A stretch of 26,626 bases of DNA, taken from NCBI GenBank assembly GCA_902373545.1, contig CABKMZ010000025.1, positions 1-26,626 of the forward strand. Reading direction: 5' to 3'. A program made the position numbers and the translations under genes. Under the pieces are notes generated by a model. The model was given only the letters and a program-made list of their open reading frames with translations. It was not told where the DNA came from and searched no databases. This DNA is from an uncultured Actinomyces sp. (GTDB lineage: Bacteria; Actinomycetota; Actinomycetes; Actinomycetales; Actinomycetaceae). The stretch's first letter is position 1. The number at the start of each line of letters is the position of its first letter. Positions 2,863-14,148 of the stretch are shown here, in pieces.

Positions 2863-4020
2863 ATGAGCCGCCACAACCTGCCCCCCGCTCCCGTTTCCGG
2901 CGCGTGGCGCGAAGGCGACCCGGTCGCGTTCCGAAAGTTCGCGAACCTGGGCGCCCAGCGCCTCGAAAACGGCGAGATCCTGCCCTCCGTGACGCTCGCT
3001 TACGAGACGTGGGGCGAGCTGGACGAGGCCGGCTCGAACGCGGTCCTCATCCTGCACGCCCTGACCGGCGACGCCCACGTGTACGGCGACGCCGCGCCCG
3101 GGCAGCCGACCCCCGGCTGGTGGGACCAGATCGTGGGCCCGGGGCGCATCATCGACACCGAGCGCTACTACGTGGTGGCCGCGAACGTGCTGGGCGGCTG
3201 TCAGGGCTCGACCGGCCCGGCCTCGCTGGCGCCGGACGGGGCGCCCTGGGGCTCGCGCTTCCCCGTGATCTCCACGCGCGATCAGGTCCGCGCCGAGGCC
3301 CTCCTGTCCGACCTCCTCGGCGTCCACACGTGGGACATCGTCATCGGCACGTCCCTGGGTGGTCACCGCGCGATCGAGTGGGCGGTCACCTACCCTGAGC
3401 GCGTGCGCCGACTCGTGGTCGTGGCCTCGGGCGCGCAGACGACGGCCGACCAGGCGGCGTGGACGCACACGCAGATCCGCGCGATCGAGCTGGATCCGGC
3501 GTGGCGCGGCGGCGACTACTACGCGGGCCCCGGCCCCACCGCCGGCTTGGCACTCGCCCGCCAGATCGCGCACACGACCTACCGCTCCCCCTCGGAGCTG
3601 GACGAGCGCTTCGGCCGCATCCCCCAGAACGACGAGGATCCCCTGCACGGCGGGCGCCTGGCGGTGGAGTCCTACCTGGACTACCACGGCGAGAAGATCG
3701 TGCGCCGCTTCGACGCCGGCTCCTACGTGACGCTGTGCCGCACGATGCTCTCCCACGACGTGGGCCGCGACCGCGGCGGCGTCGCTCAGGCCCTCAAGGC
3801 CGTCACCGCCCGCACCCTCGTCGTCGCCGTCGACTCCGACCGGCTCTTCTTCCCCGAGCAGGTCTGGCAGATGGCCTCCGGCATTCCTGGCGCGTTCTAC
3901 CGCGAGATCCACTCCGACCACGGCCACGACGGCTTCCTCATCGAACACGACCAGCTCACGGCCCTACTCAACGAGTTCCTCAACGAGCGCATCCCCTCGC
4001 GCGCGTCCTCCTTCGCGTAG
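2863..4020 (+). CDS. metX: Homoserine O-acetyltransferase
   Basis: Alpha/beta-hydrolase-fold acyltransferase that moves an acetyl group from acetyl-CoA to L-homoserine, the committed step of the acetyl route to methionine. The 385-residue protein shows the family blocks LILHALTGDAH (62-72), GGCQGSTGPAS (111-121) and the nucleophile elbow IGTSLGGH with Ser164. The acid is in SDRLFFPEQ (Asp326) and the base in GHDGFL (His355), so the triad is complete. The ATG at 2863 has SD GAAGG six bases upstream. It follows metY after a hairpin-containing gap and is followed by a strong hairpin at 4048-4088. Some MetX-family members are succinyltransferases; sequence alone does not exclude this, but pairing with metY favours the acetyl donor. 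Confidence 0.95.
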   Translation: MSRHNLPPAPVSGAWREGDPVAFRKFANLGAQRLENGEILPSVTLAYETWGELDEAGSNAVLILHALTGDAHVYGDAAPGQPTPGWWDQIVGPGRIIDTERYYVVAANVLGGCQGSTGPASLAPDGAPWGSRFPVISTRDQVRAEALLSDLLGVHTWDIVIGTSLGGHRAIEWAVTYPERVRRLVVVASGAQTTADQAAWTHTQIRAIELDPAWRGGDYYAGPGPTAGLALARQIAHTTYRSPSELDERFGRIPQNDEDPLHGGRLAVESYLDYHGEKIVRRFDAGSYVTLCRTMLSHDVGRDRGGVAQALKAVTARTLVVAVDSDRLFFPEQVWQMASGIPGAFYREIHSDHGHDGFLIEHDQLTALLNEFLNERIPSRASSFA

Positions 4021-4047
4021 GCCCGCCGCCGCACCCCCGCCTCTGCG

Positions 4048-4088
4048 CCCGCCCCGACCTCTCGCTCGATCGACGAGGTCGGGGCGGG
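4048..4088 (+). terminator. Hairpin terminator after metX
   Basis: A perfect 14-bp GC-rich stem, 4048-4061 with 4075-4088, with a 13-base loop, 28 bases after the metX stop. There is no T-run, as is common in actinobacteria. Confidence 0.7.
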
Positions 4089-4097
4089 CTCTCGCGT

Positions 4098-4103
4098 TAT
4101 GCT
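4098..4103 (+). promoter_or_regulatory. -10 element giving a leaderless mRNA for the hydrolase gene
   Basis: TATGCT ends six bases before the ATG at 4110, so transcription would start on or next to the start codon. No SD precedes the ATG, in agreement with leaderless translation. The -35 position falls in the metX terminator hairpin and does not match the consensus. Confidence 0.45.
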
Positions 4104-4109
4104 GATCAC

Positions 4110-5255
4110 ATGAGCGTTACCAGCAATCCTTCACAGGGAGGCCCGGGTTCCCCCGACGCGACCGGCCTACCAGATTTTTCCGGGGTGGAGGCCCCGGCCT
4201 CGTCGAACGAGCCGACGCCCGAGCGCGACGTCATGGCCCCCTGGGGCGAGGTCGGCCCGCCCGGCCCCAACTGGCGCACCGACATCCTGGGCGAGGGGTA
4301 CGAGTCGCGCACGATCGAGCTGATCGAGGACGCGGAGGGCCCCTGCGTGGCGACCCTTGTGCGCGCGACCCCGCCCACAAACGCCCGCATGACGATCCTG
4401 TACCTGCACGGGCGCAACGACTACTTCTTCCAGACGGAGATGGCCGACCACCTGCGAGAGGCCGGGGCCGCGTTCTACGCGCTGGACATGCGCAAGTACG
4501 GGCGCTCCCTGCGCCCCCACCAGACGATCGGCTACACGGACGACCTGTCCGTGTACGACGAGGAGATCGGCGAGGCCATCGAGATTATCCGCGAGGAGCG
4601 CGACGACGAGCCGATCGTTCTCATGGGGCACTCGACGGGCGGCCTGATCGCGACCCTGTGGGCGCACCGCCACCCGGGCGTCCTGGGCGGCCTCATCCTG
4701 AACTCGGGCTGGCTGGAGATGCAGTCGATGGCCACCTGGCGCGGGGCGATGGCTCCCGTCATCGGGCGCATCGCGGCGCGCAGCCCCATGTGGGAGGTGC
4801 CCTCGGGCGGGACCGGCCACTACGGTCGCTCGCTCGCGGGGCGCGCCTCCTCGGAGCTGGATATTCCCGAGGGGCTGTCGGCGCAGGACCCGTCGGTCGC
4901 CGGCTGGCCGATCATCCAGGAGTGGAAGCGCCCCGAGTCCTACCCGGTACCCGCTTCGTGGCTGGAGGCGATTATGGCCGGTCACGACACGGTCGAGAAG
5001 GACGTGCACCTGGACTGCCCGGTCCTGTCGATGGTGTCCACGTCGGCCTATGTCGAGGAGGAGTGGTGCGAGCGCGTCTTCACGTCCGACACCGTGTTGG
5101 ACCCGGTCGTGATCGCGCAGCGCAGCCTGGGCTTGTCCGACCTGGTGACGATCGCTCGCTTCCCCGGCAAGCACGACCTGGTCCTGTCAGACGCGCCCGT
5201 GCGCGAGGCAGTGTACGCGACCATGCGCGGCTGGCTGGGCGCGTTCATCGGGTAG
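4110..5255 (+). CDS. Alpha/beta hydrolase (serine aminopeptidase S33 / lysophospholipase-like)
   Basis: A 381-residue cytoplasmic hydrolase, no signal peptide. After a Pro/Ser-rich N-terminal 40 residues the fold begins. The oxyanion region is YLHGRND (98-104), the nucleophile elbow is GHSTGG (173-178) with Ser175, and the catalytic histidine is His355 in FPGKHDL; the acid is probably Asp327 or Asp331. This matches the Hydrolase_4/S33 group of monoacylglycerol-lipase-like and aminopeptidase-like enzymes; the substrate cannot be read from the sequence. The start is the first in-frame ATG after the metX terminator, with no SD but a -10 box at leaderless distance. It is a separate transcription unit from metX and converges on the minus-strand gene ending at 5452, with a terminator between them. 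Confidence 0.85.
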   Translation: MSVTSNPSQGGPGSPDATGLPDFSGVEAPASSNEPTPERDVMAPWGEVGPPGPNWRTDILGEGYESRTIELIEDAEGPCVATLVRATPPTNARMTILYLHGRNDYFFQTEMADHLREAGAAFYALDMRKYGRSLRPHQTIGYTDDLSVYDEEIGEAIEIIREERDDEPIVLMGHSTGGLIATLWAHRHPGVLGGLILNSGWLEMQSMATWRGAMAPVIGRIAARSPMWEVPSGGTGHYGRSLAGRASSELDIPEGLSAQDPSVAGWPIIQEWKRPESYPVPASWLEAIMAGHDTVEKDVHLDCPVLSMVSTSAYVEEEWCERVFTSDTVLDPVVIAQRSLGLSDLVTIARFPGKHDLVLSDAPVREAVYATMRGWLGAFIG

Positions 5256-5451: not shown

Positions 5452-7326
5452 TCAGTGGCGCGCGATGCGGCGTTCGCGAGGCGCTTTCGCGTATTCGCGG
5501 ACGATCTCGCGGTTGACCTCGTCAAGGGCCTCGGCCAGCGTCGGGCCCAGGCGGTCGCCGATGCGCACGAGCGACCACACGTCAATGTGGCTCATGCCGC
5601 GCGCGGTCAGCATCGTGTCCAGGGACGGGTAGGTCAGGCCGGCGCCCGAGATCGCGCCGCTGGCGGCCAGCACCAGGTCGTTGGGCAGGCCCAGTTCGCC
5701 GCGAGCCACAAGGGGCGTATCCTCGCCGAGGATCTGGGCCAGCGTGCGCAGGCCATCCTCGTCGCGTCCGAGGACGGGCACGCCCTCTTCGCGGGCCGCA
5801 ACAACCTCCGGGGATTCCTCTTCGCGATCCACAAACGAGGCCGTGGCCGCCTCTGTCGCTCCGCCATCGTTGAGCTCGAAGGCCTCAGAGTGGCTGCGGC
5901 GCGACGCGCGGCTGCCGAGGTGGGCGGGGCGCTCCCAGCGCTGCTCACCATCCACGTCGGCCTCCTCGATGTCCAGCTCCTCGTTCATGTATACCGCGCG
6001 CTCCTCGGGATGGTCGTGTTCACAGTCGCCGATGTCATCACCGCTGTGCTCGCCCTCAGAGTCCTCGTTCTCCTCGGCAACGTGCTCATCGCCGTCTTGG
6101 CCCTGCTCGTCGGAGCGCTCAGAGGCGTCGGCGTCCTCGTGATCCTCAGCCTCGTCGGCGCACTCGTCCTCGCGGCGCTCAGCCTCACCCTCGTGGTCCT
6201 CAGCCTCGCCGCGCTCGGCGTCGCTGTCGCACTCGGCACCAGCCTCACCCTCGTCGGCGCGCTCGGCGTCGTCGAAGTCAGCGTCGGCACCCTCAGCGTC
6301 GTCGGTTTCCTCCTCCGCGAGCTCGTCGCTGGGCGCCTCGTCGGCGTCTGCGCCGCGCTCGCCTTCCAGCTCAGCCTCGGCGGATTCCTCGGCCTGATCC
6401 TCCAGATCGGCACCGGCCTCGTCGGCCTGCTCCTCAGCGGCGTCCTGAGCCTGATCCTGGCCGTCGTCCTCGGACTTCCAGGGAGCGGGGGGCTCCTCGT
6501 CCACCGAGTAGTGGAACACGTCGCGCAGGTGCGGGGCGACCTTCGGGGTGGGGCGCGTCGTCGGCGTCTCCGACTCGGTCGCATTCTCCTCGTCAGTATC
6601 CGCCGAGGGCGGGTCGGGCGGAGCAGGAATGGCCGGTGCCTCGTCCTGCTCGGTCGCATCGGGGGTGGCCTCACACTCGGCGGACTCAGCCGAGGCCTCG
6701 ACCGGGACGGAACCCGCGGTAATCGCGGGGGCGGCGGCGGAGGAACCGAGGAGCTGCGGGGCGTGGCCATACAGGCGCGGTCCGACCGCGTTGACGTCCA
6801 GGAACAGGCGGCCGTTCGACATCTGGCGCAGGTTCATCAGGTGCACCTCGACGCCGGAGGTCGCCAGAATCGACAGGGCGGGACGCACCGACGGGTCGAT
6901 TTCGCCAGCGACCATGATCAGGCGGGGGCCCGGGCCAACGGCAGGAGGCATCGAGTCGCGGAACTGTGCCCAGCCTGCGCGGAAACCCTCGGGGCCCGAC
7001 GGGTACTCAGCCGCCAGATCCGACCAGGACAGCGACGCCACGACTGCCAGACGCGACAGTGACGTAATGAGGGTCTCGGAGTCCAGGAGCTTCAGGATCT
7101 CGACCGAGACGATTTGCCCCGTCACGTCCAGCGCCGTCAAGCGCGGCGTCTCCTCACCAACTTGTCCTGTCATGTCACGCCATGTCACCGGGAACAGCGG
7201 GCGCGACACAATCTGCAGGACCTGTTGGCAGATCGCGTCAACCAGGTCAGGACCCAGATCATGCGACACGGGGTACCCGAATTGAGCGGGTACGAGGTGT
7301 CCATCCTCGAACTCAAACAGGGCCAT
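5452..7326 (-). CDS. Conserved hypothetical protein: possible PD-(D/E)XK-like N-domain, long acidic linker, small C-terminal domain
   Basis: The 624 residues fall into three parts. Residues 1-195 are a globular domain. The stretch ALDVTGQIVSVEILK (65-79), the W101 helix and LIMVAGEIDPSVRPAL (136-151) resemble the order of elements in NucS/DUF91-type PD-(D/E)XK nucleases (Asp67, Glu76, Lys79, spaced ExxK rather than ExK). Residues about 210-465 are an extremely acidic Glu/Asp/Ala linker. Residues about 520-610 form a small domain ending DVWSLVRIGDRLGPTLAEAL, loosely reminiscent of the RAMA domain of restriction-modification proteins. All domain assignments are inference. Translation is taken from ATG 7326 because GAAGGA lies seven bases upstream; an in-frame GTG at 7341 overlaps that SD. 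It is monocistronic, divergent from the region at 7467, and ends at the terminator 5403-5434. Confidence 0.75.
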   Translation of the reverse strand: MALFEFEDGHLVPAQFGYPVSHDLGPDLVDAICQQVLQIVSRPLFPVTWRDMTGQVGEETPRLTALDVTGQIVSVEILKLLDSETLITSLSRLAVVASLSWSDLAAEYPSGPEGFRAGWAQFRDSMPPAVGPGPRLIMVAGEIDPSVRPALSILATSGVEVHLMNLRQMSNGRLFLDVNAVGPRLYGHAPQLLGSSAAAPAITAGSVPVEASAESAECEATPDATEQDEAPAIPAPPDPPSADTDEENATESETPTTRPTPKVAPHLRDVFHYSVDEEPPAPWKSEDDGQDQAQDAAEEQADEAGADLEDQAEESAEAELEGERGADADEAPSDELAEEETDDAEGADADFDDAERADEGEAGAECDSDAERGEAEDHEGEAERREDECADEAEDHEDADASERSDEQGQDGDEHVAEENEDSEGEHSGDDIGDCEHDHPEERAVYMNEELDIEEADVDGEQRWERPAHLGSRASRRSHSEAFELNDGGATEAATASFVDREEESPEVVAAREEGVPVLGRDEDGLRTLAQILGEDTPLVARGELGLPNDLVLAASGAISGAGLTYPSLDTMLTARGMSHIDVWSLVRIGDRLGPTLAEALDEVNREIVREYAKAPRERRIARH

Positions 7327-7466
7327 CGATCTATCCTTCACGTGTATGGGGCGCTCGTGGCCATTGTTTCATACGTTTCAAAAGAAAATCGGATGACACT
7401 TGGACATTGCGATAGATACCACGTAATCATATGGCGCATTGTCAACACTCACCAGACGCGGACCCC

Positions 7467-8168: not shown

Positions 8169-11100
8169 ATGAGCGACAGCTTCCTGTCTGACCTGCGCGC
8201 ACTCATCGACGTCGACTCCTCGAGCGGCACGCGAGCGCGCTACTCCTCCGACGCCGGCCTCACGCGCATCCCGCCCCTGGCCGTCGCGTTCCCACGCACG
8301 CCCGAGCAGGCGATCGCGGCCTTCGACCTCGCCCGCGCCCACGGCGTCCCCCTCACCGCCCGAGGCGGCGGCACCTCGTGCGCGTCCAACGCGATCGGCC
8401 CCGGCCTCGTCCTCGATTTCTCGCGCCACATGAACCGGGTCCTCTCCATCGACCCCGAGGCCCGCACCGCCACCGTCGAACCCGGCTGCGTCGGCTCCAC
8501 CCTCCAGGCCGCCGCCGCCAAGCACGGCCTGCGTTTTGGCCCCGACCCCTCCTCCCAGAACCGGGCGACGATCGCCGGCATGGTCGCCAACAACGCGTGC
8601 GGCCCGCACGCAACCGCCTGGGGGCGCACCTCCGACAACATCGTCTCCCTCGACTGCGTGGACGGACAGGGACGCCGCTTCACGGCCACGACCTCGCACG
8701 ATTCGGAGCTGAACGACGTTCCGGGGCTCGCGTCCCTCATCGACTCCAACCTGGCGCCCATCCGCACGCAGCTCGGCCGCTTCAAGCGCCAGGTCTCCGG
8801 CTATTCCCTCGAACACCTCACCCCAGAGGGCGGGCGCAACCTCGCCGCCATGCTCGCGGGCACCGAAGGCACCCTCGTCCTCATCCTGTCCATCACCGTG
8901 CGCCTCGTGCCCCTGCCCGACGCGCCCGTGCTCGCCGCCCTCGGCTATCGCTCCATGATCGAGGCGGCCGACGACGTGCCCGCGCTGCTCGCCCACTCCC
9001 CCCTCGCGGTGGAAGGCATGGACCGCCGCCTCGTCGACGTCGTCCGCGCCCACAAGGGCCCCGGCGCCGTCCCCGCCCTGCCCGAGGGCGAAGGCTGGCT
9101 CCTCGTCGAAGTCGGCGCCCCAGGCGAAGACGTCACCGCCTCCCTGGAGCGCGCACGCGCCCTGTGCGCCGACTCGGCCGCCATCGACACGGTCGTGTAC
9201 CCGCCGGGGGCCCAGGCCTCGGCCCTGTGGAGGATCCGCGCCGACGGTGCGGGCCTGGGCGGGCGCACCCCGCCTGACGGCGCGGGCGGCGGCGACCAGC
9301 AAGCATGGCCCGGCTTCGAGGATGCGGCTGTCCCGCCCGAGAACCTCGGCGCGTACCTGCGCGACTTCACCGCCCTCATGGAGGAGTTCGACATCGACGG
9401 GCTCCTGTACGGGCACTTCGGCGACGGGTGCGTGCACGTGCGCCTCGCCATGCCGCTCGAGACCCCCGAGGGCGTCGCCCACTCGCGCGCGTTCCTGCAG
9501 TCCGCGGCCCGCGTCTGCGCCGCGCACGGTGGTTCCGTCTCCGGCGAGCACGGCGACGGGCGCGCCCGCGGCGAGCTCCTGCGCTTCATGTACTCCCCCG
9601 ACATGCTCGACCTGTTCGCGCGCGTCAAGCACGTTTTCGACCCGGCTAACCTCCTCAACCCCGGGGTGCTCGCCGCCCCCATGGACGAGGCCACGGCTGC
9701 TTCCCGCGCCCGGGCGCGGAATGCCGGCGGCGCGCTCGAACTCCAACCGGGCGTCGATCCGTTGGATCTCAATCTGCGCCGCGTTGCTGCGCGTCCCATG
9801 CCCGCCGACGGCGGCTTCGCCTTCACCCACGACGGCGGCGACTTCACCGCTGCTGTCCACCGCTGCACGGGCGTCGGCAAGTGCCGCGCCGGAGTGTCCG
9901 GCACCTTCATGTGCCCCTCCTACCTGGCCACGCGCGAGGAGAAGGACGTGACCCGAGGGCGCGCCCGCATCCTGCAGGAGGCCGCGAACTCGCAGCTCGT
10001 GAAGGCGATCGACTCCCCCGAAGTCCTCGAGGCCCTCGACCTGTGCCTGGCCTGCAAGGCCTGCTCGGCCGACTGCCCCGCCGGCGTCGACATGGCCCGC
10101 TACCGCTCCGAAGCACTGTTCCGCACCTACCGCGGACGCATGCGCCCGCTCAGCCACTACACGCTCGGCTGGCTGCCGCGCCTGACCCGCGTCACCGCGC
10201 GCGTGCCCGGCCTGGCGGCCGTCGCAAACGCCGTCATGTCGGTGGGCCCCCTGCGCTCGCTCGCCTTCCGCATCATAGGCCTTGATCCTCGCCGAGGCAT
10301 GCCCGCCCTCCAGTCAGGCACCTTCACCGCGTGGGCTCGCAAGCAGTCGCTGCTGGCGGGTTCTGTCCCAACTGTCACGCCTGACGATGCCGTATCTTCC
10401 GGCGCTCCGACTTCCGATACTGCACCTTCCGATGCCGCGACCGGTGCCCGCGAGCGCGGCGGTGCCCAGGCCTCGTCTAACTCTGCCCGCAAGCGCGGCG
10501 GCGCCCAGGCCTCGTCGATGGCGGACTCCCCGATCCTGAGCGGGCCGCGCGACCCCAGCGGGCGGCCGTATGCGCTCGTGTGGGCGGACTCGTTTAGCCA
10601 GACCCTGGACGACACGGGGGCGCGCGCGGTCGTCGACGTGCTCGAGGCGAACGGTTTCGCGCCGATCGTCGCGCCGGACGCGTGCTGCGGCCTGACGTGG
10701 ATTACGACGGGTCAGCTGAGCGGGGCGAAGAAGCACTTGGCGTCGTTGCTGGGCGTTCTTGCGCCTTTTGCGGCGTCGGGGATCCCGATCGTCGGCGTTG
10801 AGCCGTCGTGCACGGCGGTGCTGCGCGACGACCTGCTGGACCTGCTGCCCGACGACCCGCGTTCTCTGCTCGTGTCTTCCGCGACGCGCACCCTCGCCGA
10901 GGTGCTGTCGGCCGTGCCCGCCTCCGCGCGGCGCCTGCCGAGCCTGGAGGGCGTCGAGATCGTCGCCCAGCCGCACTGCCACCACTACTCCGTCATGGGG
11001 TGGGACGTGGACCAGGCGCTGCTCGAGTCGCTGGGGGCGCGCGTGACCAGGCTCGAGGGCTGCTGCGGCCTGGCCGGAAACTTCGGCATGGAGGCGGGCC

Positions 11101-11264
11101 ACTACGACCTGTCTGTGGCCGTCGCGTCGCATTCTCTGCTGCCCTCCCTGTCGGCGAAGCCGGATGCCGTGTACCTGGCGGATGGCTTCTCGTGCCGCAC
11201 CCAGGCCGCGCAGCTGGCGGGCCGCGGGGGCGTCCACCTGGCGACGCTGCTTGCGGGGAAGTAG
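8169..11264 (+). CDS. FAD-binding and Fe-S-cluster oxidoreductase (D-lactate dehydrogenase / glycolate oxidase type)
   Basis: A 1031-residue single-chain enzyme likely oxidising D-lactate or a related 2-hydroxy acid and passing electrons to the respiratory chain. The FAD_binding_4 domain spans about 35-250 (ARGGGTSCASNA 64-75, NNACGPHA 141-148). The FAD-oxidase C-terminal domain spans about 250-505 (YGHFGDGCVH 414-423 and GEHGDGRARGE 459-469). The ferredoxin-like part has Cys566/Cys572/Cys582 and CLACKACSADC (626-636) followed by Pro637. Two cysteine-rich CCG segments follow, with CC at 839-840 and CC at 965-966. An unusual Ala/Ser-rich linker (about 730-795) contains a tandem duplication of RGGAQASS. 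Glycolate oxidase (GlcD fused to GlcF) is the main alternative substrate class. No terminator is visible downstream before the repeat array at 11355. Confidence 0.88.
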   Translation: MSDSFLSDLRALIDVDSSSGTRARYSSDAGLTRIPPLAVAFPRTPEQAIAAFDLARAHGVPLTARGGGTSCASNAIGPGLVLDFSRHMNRVLSIDPEARTATVEPGCVGSTLQAAAAKHGLRFGPDPSSQNRATIAGMVANNACGPHATAWGRTSDNIVSLDCVDGQGRRFTATTSHDSELNDVPGLASLIDSNLAPIRTQLGRFKRQVSGYSLEHLTPEGGRNLAAMLAGTEGTLVLILSITVRLVPLPDAPVLAALGYRSMIEAADDVPALLAHSPLAVEGMDRRLVDVVRAHKGPGAVPALPEGEGWLLVEVGAPGEDVTASLERARALCADSAAIDTVVYPPGAQASALWRIRADGAGLGGRTPPDGAGGGDQQAWPGFEDAAVPPENLGAYLRDFTALMEEFDIDGLLYGHFGDGCVHVRLAMPLETPEGVAHSRAFLQSAARVCAAHGGSVSGEHGDGRARGELLRFMYSPDMLDLFARVKHVFDPANLLNPGVLAAPMDEATAASRARARNAGGALELQPGVDPLDLNLRRVAARPMPADGGFAFTHDGGDFTAAVHRCTGVGKCRAGVSGTFMCPSYLATREEKDVTRGRARILQEAANSQLVKAIDSPEVLEALDLCLACKACSADCPAGVDMARYRSEALFRTYRGRMRPLSHYTLGWLPRLTRVTARVPGLAAVANAVMSVGPLRSLAFRIIGLDPRRGMPALQSGTFTAWARKQSLLAGSVPTVTPDDAVSSGAPTSDTAPSDAATGARERGGAQASSNSARKRGGAQASSMADSPILSGPRDPSGRPYALVWADSFSQTLDDTGARAVVDVLEANGFAPIVAPDACCGLTWITTGQLSGAKKHLASLLGVLAPFAASGIPIVGVEPSCTAVLRDDLLDLLPDDPRSLLVSSATRTLAEVLSAVPASARRLPSLEGVEIVAQPHCHHYSVMGWDVDQALLESLGARVTRLEGCCGLAGNFGMEAGHYDLSVAVASHSLLPSLSAKPDAVYLADGFSCRTQAAQLAGRGGVHLATLLAGK

Positions 11265-11354
11265 GGGCTGATTATCGGGAAGTGAGTGCGCCATAGCCAC
11301 GACTTCTGCTCGCTACTACTAGTAATTGCTTCACGTGCGCCCTGTCCCCAAGTA

Positions 11355-11474
11355 GCAATGCACTGTTTTGAGGAGCATTGCACTAGATAGGGAGGCATTG
11401 CACTACCTACTATCCAGTGCAATGCTCTGCTATCTAGTGCACTGCTACAGCAACCAGCGCAATAACTACCGACT
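11355..11474. repeat. 20-bp-phased palindromic array, left copy (six units: three forward, three inverted)
   Basis: Units begin at 11355, 11375, 11395 (GCAATGCACT, GCATTGCACT, GCATTGCACT) and at 11415, 11435, 11455 (CAGTGCAATG, TAGTGCACTG, CAGCGCAATA). Each is an approximately 10-bp half-site followed by about 10 bp of spacer, and the period is exactly 20. The array is a large imperfect palindrome: 11375-11390 pairs with 11430-11445 (15 of 16) and 11395-11404 pairs with 11416-11425 (10 of 10). It lies between the oxidoreductase stop and the nuclease gene, and the sixth unit overlaps that gene's stop codon (11466-11468). A near-twin is at 12702. Confidence 0.85.
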
Positions 11475-12548
11475 GCGCGTATGAAAACGCCGACTCGGGC
11501 CATCACACGCTTCAGTCGGCAACGCCCACAGTGCCTCGGCATGCTCAGGGATAGCAATTTGATGCGGCCGGAGGAGCTTGATCGCCCACGCACGTAACGC
11601 GGCGAAATCTTCATAGTCCCTCCAAGAGACCCGGTATATCGTCCACCCGGCACTACGCAGATCATTTTCTCGCTGGATCCAGTCACGCTTCGCCCGCGCG
11701 AACTCAGCATCATCCTTGCCCAGTTTTCCAATGCCATCGAACTCGAAGATGATCATGAGTCCCGGAATCGCGATATCCGCAAAGTAGCGGTGCCCGTTGA
11801 CGACGATCTCGAACTGGGTCACGACCTCGAAGGCACTCACCGACTTGAGAACCCACAGCAGTGCAGCCTCGGCAGGGTTGTCGCAGCCCGGGTCAGCGGC
11901 GTCTATGATTCTCTCCGCTCGCTTGTAAGGAATGCAGGTAGCCGCCCGTCGCCGTTCTATCAGACGTACCTTCATCGCATCTTTGGTCATTTCTGCCAGG
12001 CATCTGGCTTCATCTTGAGCAAACTTCGAGAAGCCTGACTCGTGACGCAACACCATGCAGGCTGCGACAAAAGCACTCAAAGCTTCTGAATAACACGCCA
12101 TACGCACAACCGCGTCGATAACAGATTCGCATCGGAGCCCATCGATGATTTCCAATGCGTTTTCTGATGGTCGACTGGTGGTCGCGTAGACATAGACCGG
12201 CGGAACGGTAGCTACCATCGTTCTAACAGGAGGCAATCGCCGCTTTCCATGTCGTACACCGAACCACGCCACAACATCCGGATTGGCCTCCCACAATGGA
12301 ATTGAACGCGCAACGAGGGCACTATTACCGACGAAAACAGCCTGCCGCTTCGCTCCGACACATACCGCAAGGAGCCTGGCTTGGGCTACTGTCGCCCATG
12401 AATCCCAGATAGTCGTGAACGCATCAGGACTATCAACACGGACGTAGCAACCTTTCCGAATCCACACACACGCATCGGGACGTGGTTGCTGAACGGTACC
12501 CTCAGACTGTGAGGGCGATGTCAGGACCGTCATCGATCGAATACTCAT
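11466..12548 (-). CDS. AbiEi-like / DUF559 (Vsr-like) endonuclease-domain protein
   Basis: A 360-residue protein. The C-terminal part (about 225-325) has the DUF559/Vsr-type nuclease pattern: Glu227, Asp258 in YFADIAIP, Glu269 and Asp271 in IIFEFDG, then a KRDW...REND helix and GWTIYRVSW strand. The N-terminal 200 residues resemble the AbiEi-like region often found ahead of DUF559 in actinobacteria (IRKGCYVRV, then a long helical region); this part is inference. The start is ATG 12548, with SD GAGGA ten bases upstream. A 36-residue upstream extension is open but has no SD. Base composition is clearly lower in GC than the neighbours and codons are mixed, suggesting transfer. A near-identical palindromic array lies on either side of the gene, and two DnaA-box 9-mers lie upstream. 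No cognate AbiEii toxin gene is present. Role unknown; defence, regulation or element mobility are possibilities. Confidence 0.75.
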   Translation of the reverse strand: MSIRSMTVLTSPSQSEGTVQQPRPDACVWIRKGCYVRVDSPDAFTTIWDSWATVAQARLLAVCVGAKRQAVFVGNSALVARSIPLWEANPDVVAWFGVRHGKRRLPPVRTMVATVPPVYVYATTSRPSENALEIIDGLRCESVIDAVVRMACYSEALSAFVAACMVLRHESGFSKFAQDEARCLAEMTKDAMKVRLIERRRAATCIPYKRAERIIDAADPGCDNPAEAALLWVLKSVSAFEVVTQFEIVVNGHRYFADIAIPGLMIIFEFDGIGKLGKDDAEFARAKRDWIQRENDLRSAGWTIYRVSWRDYEDFAALRAWAIKLLRPHQIAIPEHAEALWALPTEACDGPSRRFHTRSR

Positions 12549-12599
12549 ACATTGATGATCCTCATGCGAGCCGCACTCGTCACCCACACAACCGACACC

Positions 12600-12636
12600 T
12601 GTGGATAACTCGCACCATAACGAAGCCTGTGGATAA
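12600..12636. promoter_or_regulatory. Two perfect TGTGGATAA 9-mers (DnaA-box consensus) 28 bp apart
   Basis: TGTGGATAA at 12600-12608 and 12628-12636, each preceded by CC, equals TTATCCACA on the minus strand. They lie 50-90 bases upstream of the nuclease start, in the position of its promoter. They may be DnaA boxes or a promoter-proximal motif of this gene family. Confidence 0.6.
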
Positions 12637-12701
12637 TCCCTGTTCGATACTCTCATCGGGGCTACCCCAAGCCGCGCCCCATGTCAGTTCAGCCTTAGGC
12701 A

Positions 12702-12821
12702 GCGATGCACCACATAGGGAGGCATTGTACTATTTCGGGAAGCATTGCACTAGCTACTATCCAGTGCAATGCCGTGCTATCTAGTGCATTGCTTACTCTT
12801 CTAGTGCAATGCTCGTTCACC
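12702..12821. repeat. 20-bp-phased palindromic array, right copy (six units: three forward, three inverted)
   Basis: Units begin at 12702, 12722, 12742 (GCGATGCACC, GCATTGTACT, GCATTGCACT) and at 12762, 12782, 12802 (CAGTGCAATG, TAGTGCATTG, TAGTGCAATG). The period is exactly 20 and the architecture is the same as in the left array. 12742-12751 pairs perfectly with 12763-12772. The final unit runs into the apbE stop codon (12817-12819). The spacers ATAGGGAG and CTACTATC are shared with the left array. Confidence 0.85.
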
Positions 12822-14148
12822 GCGCCGCACGCACCAGGCCCACTACCTTCGCCGAGGCCGGGGCGCCCATCGCGCGGGCCCAGCGGGCCGCGACGTCCGA
12901 AATATCGATGGACGGATCGACGAGCAGCGCGGTGGACAGCGCCTCCGCCAACACACCCGACGAGGCCACGACACTGACCTGCCGAACGCCCGAACGCGCG
13001 GGGTAACCCGTACGCGGGTCGATGATGTGATGGTCGAAAATTCGACCGCCGCCACCGGGTGTTTCACGCGATGTTTCACGCGCGCGCAGATCCGCCGCAC
13101 GCTCCGCCACACACTCCGACACAGGCCCCGCACAAAGCGCACGAGCATCCCCCAGCGGCCCCAGGTTGTCCCCAGACGTCGACAGGGACGCCATGCCGTC
13201 CGCAGGCAGTTCCACGACGCCGGCAATCGCCGTGGGCACGCCGTGAGGATCACGCAGGCCTGCGCGCCACGGCGAACCGTCGGCGCGAGTACCACTCACA
13301 GACACCGACGACGTCCCCACAGACACCAACACGCCGCGCGCTCCCATGGACACCGCCAGGTCGCGGCACGCGTCGGCGGTGTACCCCTTCGCGATGCCGC
13401 CCAGGTCGAGGCGCGGGCTGGGAACATCCACACAACCGACGGACTCGGCGGGAACGCCCACTGCCCAGCGCCGCTCGCCGACGCGCGACAGCAAGCCCCA
13501 CGACGACGCGCGCAACGCCGCCTCCACAACGCGCGAGGACGGCGCAGGAGGCAAGGGAGCGCCCGCAACATACGCGGCCCGCATCGCCTTGACGTCCCAT
13601 GCGGCAACGAGCGGCCCGATCATCGGGTTGAACGCTCCCCCGGTCGCCTCCGCGAGTGCCAGCGCGCCACGCAGCAACCGGTCGGTGTCCTCGCTCACAA
13701 CGAGGCCGGCGCTGGCCTCCGCGGATTCAGCCAAGTGACGGGAAACACCCTCACCGCCCCCAGCTGAAGCGACAGCGGCATTGAGCCGCGACACCTCGGA
13801 AGAAACCCGGAAGACACTCCACAGGTCCTCGTGGCGCGCCACGACCTCGACAATGGCGTTGACGATAGCCATGCCGTTCCCGCCCCAGCCGATCAGGTCA
13901 ACGCGCGTACCCATGGCTGGAAAGGAGGAGCGCCACATCGGCGAAACCGCGGCTTCGGCTGTCGCTCCTGAGGAAGCACCAGCCACGCCCGATTCACCAG
14001 CAGGATCGGCAGCAGCACCGGCAGCAGCGCCGACAGCAACACCGACCACCGCATCGGTCCCGCCCGCAAGCCCAGCGGCATTCGCGCACGAGCCCTCGCC
14101 GACACTGACGGGCTTCGCCGAGCGCGCTGAACCCGACGGATCGGCCAC
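12817..14148 (-). CDS. apbE: FAD:protein FMN transferase
   Basis: ApbE attaches FMN from FAD to a threonine of a target protein through a phosphoester bond, outside the cytoplasmic membrane. The motifs are AFNPMIGPL (172-180), DLGGIAKGYTADA (248-260), SLSTSGDN (321-328) and HHIIDPRTGYP (373-383), all typical of the family. Read from GTG 14148 the protein has 443 residues. The first 70 are Ala/Gly-rich low complexity with no SD, and the GTG lies inside a copy of the window's 15-mer repeat, so translation could instead begin at Met71 (13938) or nearby, giving 373 residues. It is the last gene of the iron operon, 31 bases after the FMN-binding lipoprotein, its likely substrate. No lipobox or standard signal peptide is visible, which is unusual for an exported ApbE. 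Confidence 0.88.
   Translation of the reverse strand: MADPSGSARSAKPVSVGEGSCANAAGLAGGTDAVVGVAVGAAAGAAADPAGESGVAGASSGATAEAAVSPMWRSSFPAMGTRVDLIGWGGNGMAIVNAIVEVVARHEDLWSVFRVSSEVSRLNAAVASAGGGEGVSRHLAESAEASAGLVVSEDTDRLLRGALALAEATGGAFNPMIGPLVAAWDVKAMRAAYVAGAPLPPAPSSRVVEAALRASSWGLLSRVGERRWAVGVPAESVGCVDVPSPRLDLGGIAKGYTADACRDLAVSMGARGVLVSVGTSSVSVSGTRADGSPWRAGLRDPHGVPTAIAGVVELPADGMASLSTSGDNLGPLGDARALCAGPVSECVAERAADLRARETSRETPGGGGRIFDHHIIDPRTGYPARSGVRQVSVVASSGVLAEALSTALLVDPSIDISDVAARWARAMGAPASAKVVGLVRAAR

Follow-up and report, generated by a model that had tools for sequence, protein, structure and literature searches.

A Vsr-fold nuclease gene between phased palindromic arrays in an uncultured Actinomyces and the array types of its relatives

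The window analysed here, a stretch of 26,626 nucleotides from an uncultured Actinomyces sp. (assembly GCA_902373545.1, contig CABKMZ010000025.1, positions 1 to 26,626), carries a nuclease gene between two arrays of short half-sites, each with three forward and three inverted units. We describe the architecture of this locus, the co-variation of the arrays with the N-terminal domain of the encoded protein, the dispersal pattern of related arrays and their presence/absence differences between strains. The arrangement in the window is an instance of a recurrent pattern, and it hints at a little-known partnership of arrays and nucleases found in a group of mouth bacteria. We give a probability of about one half to the reading that gene and arrays are a cognate pair working like the REP/RAYT system, in which a sequence-specific nuclease would read its own array.

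Phased arrays around the nuclease gene

The half-site arrays were confirmed on both sides of the nuclease gene. Both belong to type A (array types A-G were assigned by eye), are given without strand and share the 10-bp consensus half-site GCATTGCACT. The half-sites of array 1 (11355-11465), on the 3' side of the gene, lie at 11355, 11375 and 11395 (forward) and at 11416, 11436 and 11456 (inverted); those of array 2 (12702-12812), on the 5' side, lie at 12702, 12722 and 12742 (forward) and at 12763, 12783 and 12803 (inverted). In each array three sites match the consensus perfectly, two have one mismatch and one outer site has three (TTATTGCGCT at 11456 in array 1, GCGATGCACC at 12702 in array 2). 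The two arrays are direct repeats of each other (76% over 110 nt; score 58 in direct and 37 in inverted orientation). A test for the six-site layout recovered both arrays and gave no hit in 200 mononucleotide shuffles of the window; since the bare 10-mer (up to two mismatches) is at chance level (14 found, 16.5 expected), the non-randomness lies in the arrangement of the half-sites. Array 1 adjoins the stop codon of the nuclease gene (11466-11468), and on the other side about 150 bp separate array 2 from the likely start downstream of it (M37, window position 12548); this array lies 4 bp beyond the stop codon of apbE. The first-pass annotation of this DNA had described twin 3+3 arrays, one directly downstream of the gene and the other about 150 bp upstream, and the twelve located half-sites bear out both layout and positions. 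It had also placed every unit 20 bp from the next, which holds within the arms and fails at the centre, where the step is 21 bp; units are 19 or 20 bp apart among the six arrays that were measured, so that the idea of exactly two helical turns is not to be pressed.

The nuclease gene (11466-12548, minus strand) encodes 360 residues from M37, the longest open reading frame extending to 12656 (396 residues). Its GC content is 56%, against 70-73% in the two neighbouring genes, as the earlier remark on its lower GC had it. Residues ~71-255 resemble nucleotidyltransferase and AbiEi-antitoxin folds; the AbiEi alignment starts at residue 55, and residues 1-38 and 49-60 of the long frame are of low confidence. 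Residues 260-367 have a Vsr/I-Bth0305I-like nuclease fold, with matches to I-Bth0305I and to Vsr, the catalytic-domain fold of the EDxHD enzymes. Residues E263, D294, E305 and D307 are invariant over 15 sequences, and no histidine is invariant. The label AbiEi/DUF559 first given to the gene is plausible by fold and weak by sequence: MTES_1575 (PF18741) matched below its cut-off (14.6 bits, cut-off 38.2) and the Pfam profile search of the window protein gave no match to DUF559 (PF04480), a family that one relative (L238) passes (25.2, cut-off 20.6). No relatives of solved structure were found by sequence, and the search for known defence genes gave no match in PADLOC or NCBIfam. PF04480 was matched in 56 of 79 sampled genomes of the class; DUF559/Vsr-like nucleases are common in actinobacteria, and for the majority no settled role is known to us.

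Array types and the N-terminal domain across strains

The locus is anchored by a FAD-linked oxidase with a 4Fe-4S domain on the left (8169-11264, plus strand) and by an ApbE family protein on the right (12817-14148, minus strand). Orthologues of the nuclease with 55-64% identity lie between the same two genes in eight genomes (G001, G003, G005, G006, G010, G017, G022 and G024), and a further one, split over two contigs, occupies the same place in G004. Phased arrays were present on both sides in all nine of these genomes, equal in type within a strain and unequal between strains: type A in the window, C in G005 and G024, D in G001, G003, G010 and G017, E in G004 and G006, and a D-like type in G022. 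The nuclease gene is absent from G002, which has kept two type-D arrays, and in G011 and G012 a relative of ~43% identity lies inverted at the same place, between two arrays with a CATTGGGGCA-like half-site.

The number of units and of arrays also varies. Arrays and spacer are multiplied in tandem in G017, where the gene has several type-D arrays to its left and to its right (L162, 1333-1900 and 3330-3880), L240 shows repeated arrays of another half-site, and some type-B/D arrays in L089 and L095 are lopsided, with far more inverted units at one side than at the other. In G004, the contig ends at the split orthologue (L165 and L166) carry other sequence, which suggests that this gene is interrupted by an inserted element.

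The neighbours of the gene are unchanged in the relatives examined; a recent mobile gene cassette was therefore rejected, and the small mobile cassette first considered is not supported. A homing cassette is a different proposal: the nuclease would cut a lone array, gene and array would be copied in, and the gene would end between direct arrays, as it stands in the window. We regard it as highly improbable, given that the three groups tested have one locus per family, that solo arrays remain unfilled and that the two arrays without gene in G002 look like a loss and not like an unused site.

The array type follows the N-terminal domain of the protein. Nine of the ten syntenic loci, including the window, were compared in 36 pairs (G004, with its gene divided between two contigs, was not included), with array segments cut by hand. 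Array similarity correlated with N-domain identity (rho 0.77) but not with nuclease-domain identity (rho 0.22), the partial correlations being 0.76 (Mantel p 0.0002) and -0.01, respectively. For the 3'-side array alone, the partial correlation was 0.75 with the N-domain (0 of 5000 permutations) and 0.27 with the nuclease domain (p 0.11). This array adjoins the end of the gene that encodes the nuclease domain, so simple linkage should bind it to that domain; it followed the N-domain instead. Along the protein, the correlation in 50-residue windows was 0.62-0.79 over residues 43 to 267, about zero or negative for residues 243 to 367, and again 0.54-0.67 at the C-terminal tail. The window and G005 proteins exemplify the pattern: their nuclease domains are 92% identical, their N-domains 45%, and their arrays differ. 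These nine related loci provide strong but not final evidence that the N-domain reads the array.

Flanking repeats of paralogues and dispersed arrays

The family search gave matches in 53 of 213 genomes. The paralogue set comprised 62 loci, namely 60 listed non-syntenic matches taken roughly by rank plus L167 and L169, and includes orthologue groups. Phased inverted arrays of any sequence (score of at least 38) were found in the 5' flank of nine of the 62, in the 3' flank of ten and in both flanks of seven, compared with two of 273 background windows; these scans assumed a 20-bp period and therefore overlook families spaced at 19 bp, F2 among them. In a sequence-neutral comparison of the two flanks of 61 loci (one was dropped for a short flank), 27 had a direct repeat scoring at least 40, compared with nine of 709 control segments and four of 105 called genes. 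Two of these four are the malic enzyme gene among the same arrays described below; the others are a tandem gene duplication and an ISL3 transposase. In the inverted orientation, 11 of the 61 reached this score. The repeat sequences differ from one paralogue group to another. In a further gene set, repeats were present at 17 of 20 loci, seven of which were already in the earlier set (six with repeats); 11 of the 13 new genes scored at least 60 (one orthologue group of five, five genes in G057, G067 and G078, three further genomes of the family, and one more), and at L346, among the genes of G057, G067 and G078, a near-perfect 83-bp palindrome lies on both sides. The repeats were palindromic in 20 of 28 cases. 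At L210 (G014 C2, 811200-819400), two paralogue copies with equal match scores stand in tandem, 2.1 kb apart. Together with the co-variation, this recurrence around paralogues supports the suggestion of the first-pass annotation that the nuclease has recognition arrays of its own, the binding itself being inferred.

Arrays are not confined to the gene locus; a restriction to it was rejected, as type-A arrays are dispersed. The type-A junction (up to three mismatches, which admits some type-B arrays) occurs in 11 of 35 genomes of the genus, with 5-11 copies per genome in G001-G005, and the reversed pattern in none. Single three-mismatch matches in G015, G020 and G032 may be chance or another type. 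The exact junction is also present in three records unrelated to the genus group. Three loci from other phyla (L003, L009 and L010) showed only a single hairpin by scan and were taken as chance, and the half-sites found in tandem on two viral contigs, as an 11-bp tandem repeat on one and a lone pair on the other, were unlike the window arrays.

The distribution was followed in 40 pieces of 20 kb from G010, an unbiased sample that covers 800 kb and a third of the genome. Solo arrays numbered five for family F2 (GGATAG), about five for family F3, five for type D and two for type A; F2 and F3 each had two more arrays at their own gene. None of the 17 solo arrays lies inside a called gene. Two are at sample edges and lack a left neighbour; of the other 15, nine lie between convergent genes, five between co-directional and one between divergent ones. 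Counted once per gap, five of ten array-bearing gaps were convergent, compared with 73 of 517 gaps (p 0.008), and in the type C and D pieces of G005, G017 and G024, which were chosen for their matches, 12 of 20 classifiable gaps were (p 3e-6); gaps and neighbours are approximate in these counts, as the codon-usage gene caller misses low-GC genes such as the nuclease family. Different array families accumulate in one gap. The gap after the prephenate dehydratase gene, convergent with a diacylglycerol kinase gene, is short and array-free in G002, G010 and G024, and holds types C and A in G001, E and A in G003 and G004, C, E, A and more in G005, variants in G022 and another inserted sequence in G017.

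Arrays were also found beside other sequences. An element with ISL3-like ends (GGCTCTTCATAATT...) splits a type-A array in L002 (G001 C3, ~3542-4993), and the 8-bp word GCATTGCA flanks it left and right in the manner of a target duplication. Array clusters bracket a malic enzyme gene: in G005 (L418, 2530-2864 and 5051-5406) each cluster has types A, C and D in this order, and in G001 (L056, 4041-6774) each has types A and D. At the equivalent position of G003 (L073) the gene was not called; it may be cargo gained or lost via recombination between arrays.

Some of these features would also be expected of ordinary REP- or MITE-like (miniature inverted-repeat transposable element-like) repeats or of bidirectional terminators, spread by another enzyme, with the nuclease gene merely lying among them and its N-domain drifting. 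Solo arrays prefer 3'-3' gaps, the malic enzyme gene is bracketed too, and RNA folding is strong for array 1 (z -6.7 and -6.2 for the two strands) and moderate for array 2 (z -3.6 and -2.9). No Rfam match was found in 11000-13200, and no promoter or terminator consensus at the window arrays. We nevertheless consider such an origin distinctly unlikely: it leaves unexplained the direct-repeat bracketing of paralogues in excess of the control segments, the different repeat sequences of the paralogue groups, and a 3' array that tracks the N-domain across a conserved nuclease domain.

Comparison with known systems and working of the pair

REP/RAYT (REPtrons, REPINs), of gammaproteobacteria, is the closest comparison for the nuclease/array pair, and one that had been drawn at the outset. 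In the available parts of PMC2817692 and PMC3116915, a single-copy, largely vertical enzyme gene is bracketed by palindromic repeats, extragenic copies are dispersed, several families occur per genome and co-evolution of repeat and enzyme is proposed. The enzyme gene with repeats on both sides and the dispersed extragenic copies are both found here. In contrast to the RAYT enzyme, an HUH tyrosine transposase related to IS200/IS605, the window enzyme is a Vsr-fold nuclease; its flanking repeats are direct instead of inverted and are multi-site phased arrays, and the solo arrays appear to be present in tens instead of hundreds (a third of G010 has 17). REP repeats carry a GTAG or CGTC tag at one end; inspection by eye showed such a tag next to the outermost half-site in some type-A arrays, though not in L169 or L253. 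We place the arrangement with the systems of a repeat plus a dedicated enzyme; it is neither a REP/RAYT member nor, at the window locus, an AbiE system. The first-pass annotation had named arrays at many loci without the gene as an outcome against its proposal; literally, this is what was found, and a REP-like system would predict the same.

The AbiEi and Rv2827c antitoxins (type IV toxin-antitoxin systems), which the window protein appears to resemble in the fold of its N-domain, bind sets of inverted repeats at their own promoter, according to the part of PMC7319586 available. They differ from the window gene, which has no adjacent toxin gene at its locus, is fused to a nuclease domain and has arrays on both sides and across the genome. 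Neither the window locus nor its syntenic relatives (FAD oxidase, ApbE) have a toxin partner next to the nuclease gene; with this and the lack of a PADLOC match, the defence or addiction module first considered finds no support at this locus. By analogy with both antitoxins, autoregulation through array binding may occur and is compatible with the data. That self-regulation is the whole explanation, with an AbiEi-like protein binding both arrays (looping or roadblock) to repress its own gene, and dispersed arrays being targets or relics with no role of the nuclease in their spread, appears rather unlikely. No toxin gene adjoins, and left unexplained would be the array behind the stop codon, the enrichment of solo arrays in convergent gaps, the presence/absence differences between strains and the conserved nuclease domain.

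There are two further likenesses. The likeness to the EDxHD homing endonuclease I-Bth0305I is one of predicted fold, the window gene being non-intronic and its DNA-reading domain different, and with the DUF559/MTES_1575 families (PF04480, PF18741) the window family shares weak profile matches. No association of these nucleases with arrays was found in the accessible part of PMC3710099. The nuclease/array system is not described in the available portions of PMC2817692, PMC3733652, PMC3116915, PMC7319586, PMC3710099, PMC3943268 and PMC12369343, and no description of it was found in full-text literature searches, which leave most subscription papers outside.

In the cognate pair that we favour, the N-terminal domain, with its AbiEi/nucleotidyltransferase-like fold, would read the half-sites of its array, several molecules probably binding side by side on the 19-20 bp repeat. 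The C-terminal, homing-endonuclease-like domain of Vsr/EDxHD type would be catalytic and act at or near the array. The gene would be a locus-fixed source between two direct array copies and the arrays would be the spreading unit, by analogy with REP/RAYT, related solo arrays having reached extragenic and preferentially 3'-3' positions. We hypothesise that the nuclease disperses the arrays, its cutting driving their spread or replacement through break repair; gene conversion after the cut would be the simplest route for a hydrolytic nuclease. Both flanking arrays, when bound, may also repress the gene. A wider model can be offered only tentatively: Vsr-fold nucleases with swappable DNA-reading domains, each spreading and maintaining its own class of phased palindromic arrays along the chromosome, as a REP/RAYT-like system of unrelated chemistry, the pairing changing between strains by joint exchange of the N-domain and both arrays.

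Several findings weigh against the reading as a cognate pair. If each nuclease spread its own type, resident and dispersed types should agree, and the copy counts do not support this overall: G001-G005 have 2-8 type-A junctions each (up to one mismatch) and no type-A gene at the locus; dispersed type C was found at 12 places in G005 and at one in G024, both C residents, and at 1-5 in eight other genomes; type D was found at 11 places in G017, whose fellow D residents G001, G003 and G010 had 1-4 each, and at 1-7 in six non-residents. Past alleles may explain the mismatch, an explanation that is no evidence for the model. The ten genomes with arrays possibly form a single clade, in which case co-occurrence is confounded by descent. 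Of the 61 paralogues, 34 have no direct repeat at the cut-off and many are orthologues of one another. In the class-wide set (35 of 60 loci chosen by eye, excluding giant frames, repeats of one place and short frames; 31 scored, four having too short a flank), the flanking-repeat signal was weak, with 6 of 31 at a score of at least 24 and no matched control, the best being L376 (49), L381 (40) and L413 (37). Neither a clean insertion border nor a target duplication was observed for the arrays; in the prephenate dehydratase gap they take the place of ~45 bp of the G002-type gap. Finally, the malic enzyme gene that arrays bracket in two genomes is unrelated to the nuclease.

If each nuclease does read its own array, the family would be a natural set of nucleases with the target written beside the gene, and DNA reading by the N-domain would be open to direct decoding. 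The pair would also be a second example, unrelated in its chemistry, of the gain of dispersed palindromic repeats by bacterial genomes, and would bear on what ties a single-copy enzyme gene to dispersed repeats, a point left open in the available part of the REPIN paper (PMC3116915).

Elsewhere in the window, a 629-residue reading frame (5452-7341) had no Pfam match at E 0.001. The FAD oxidase neighbour reaches 96% identity within the Schaalia odontolytica group, to which the window probably belongs, and in three genomes (L156, L158 and L166) a MITE-like repeat with ends like TTCGCACGTAATTCCC / AAATTACGTGCGA lies between this gene and the array.
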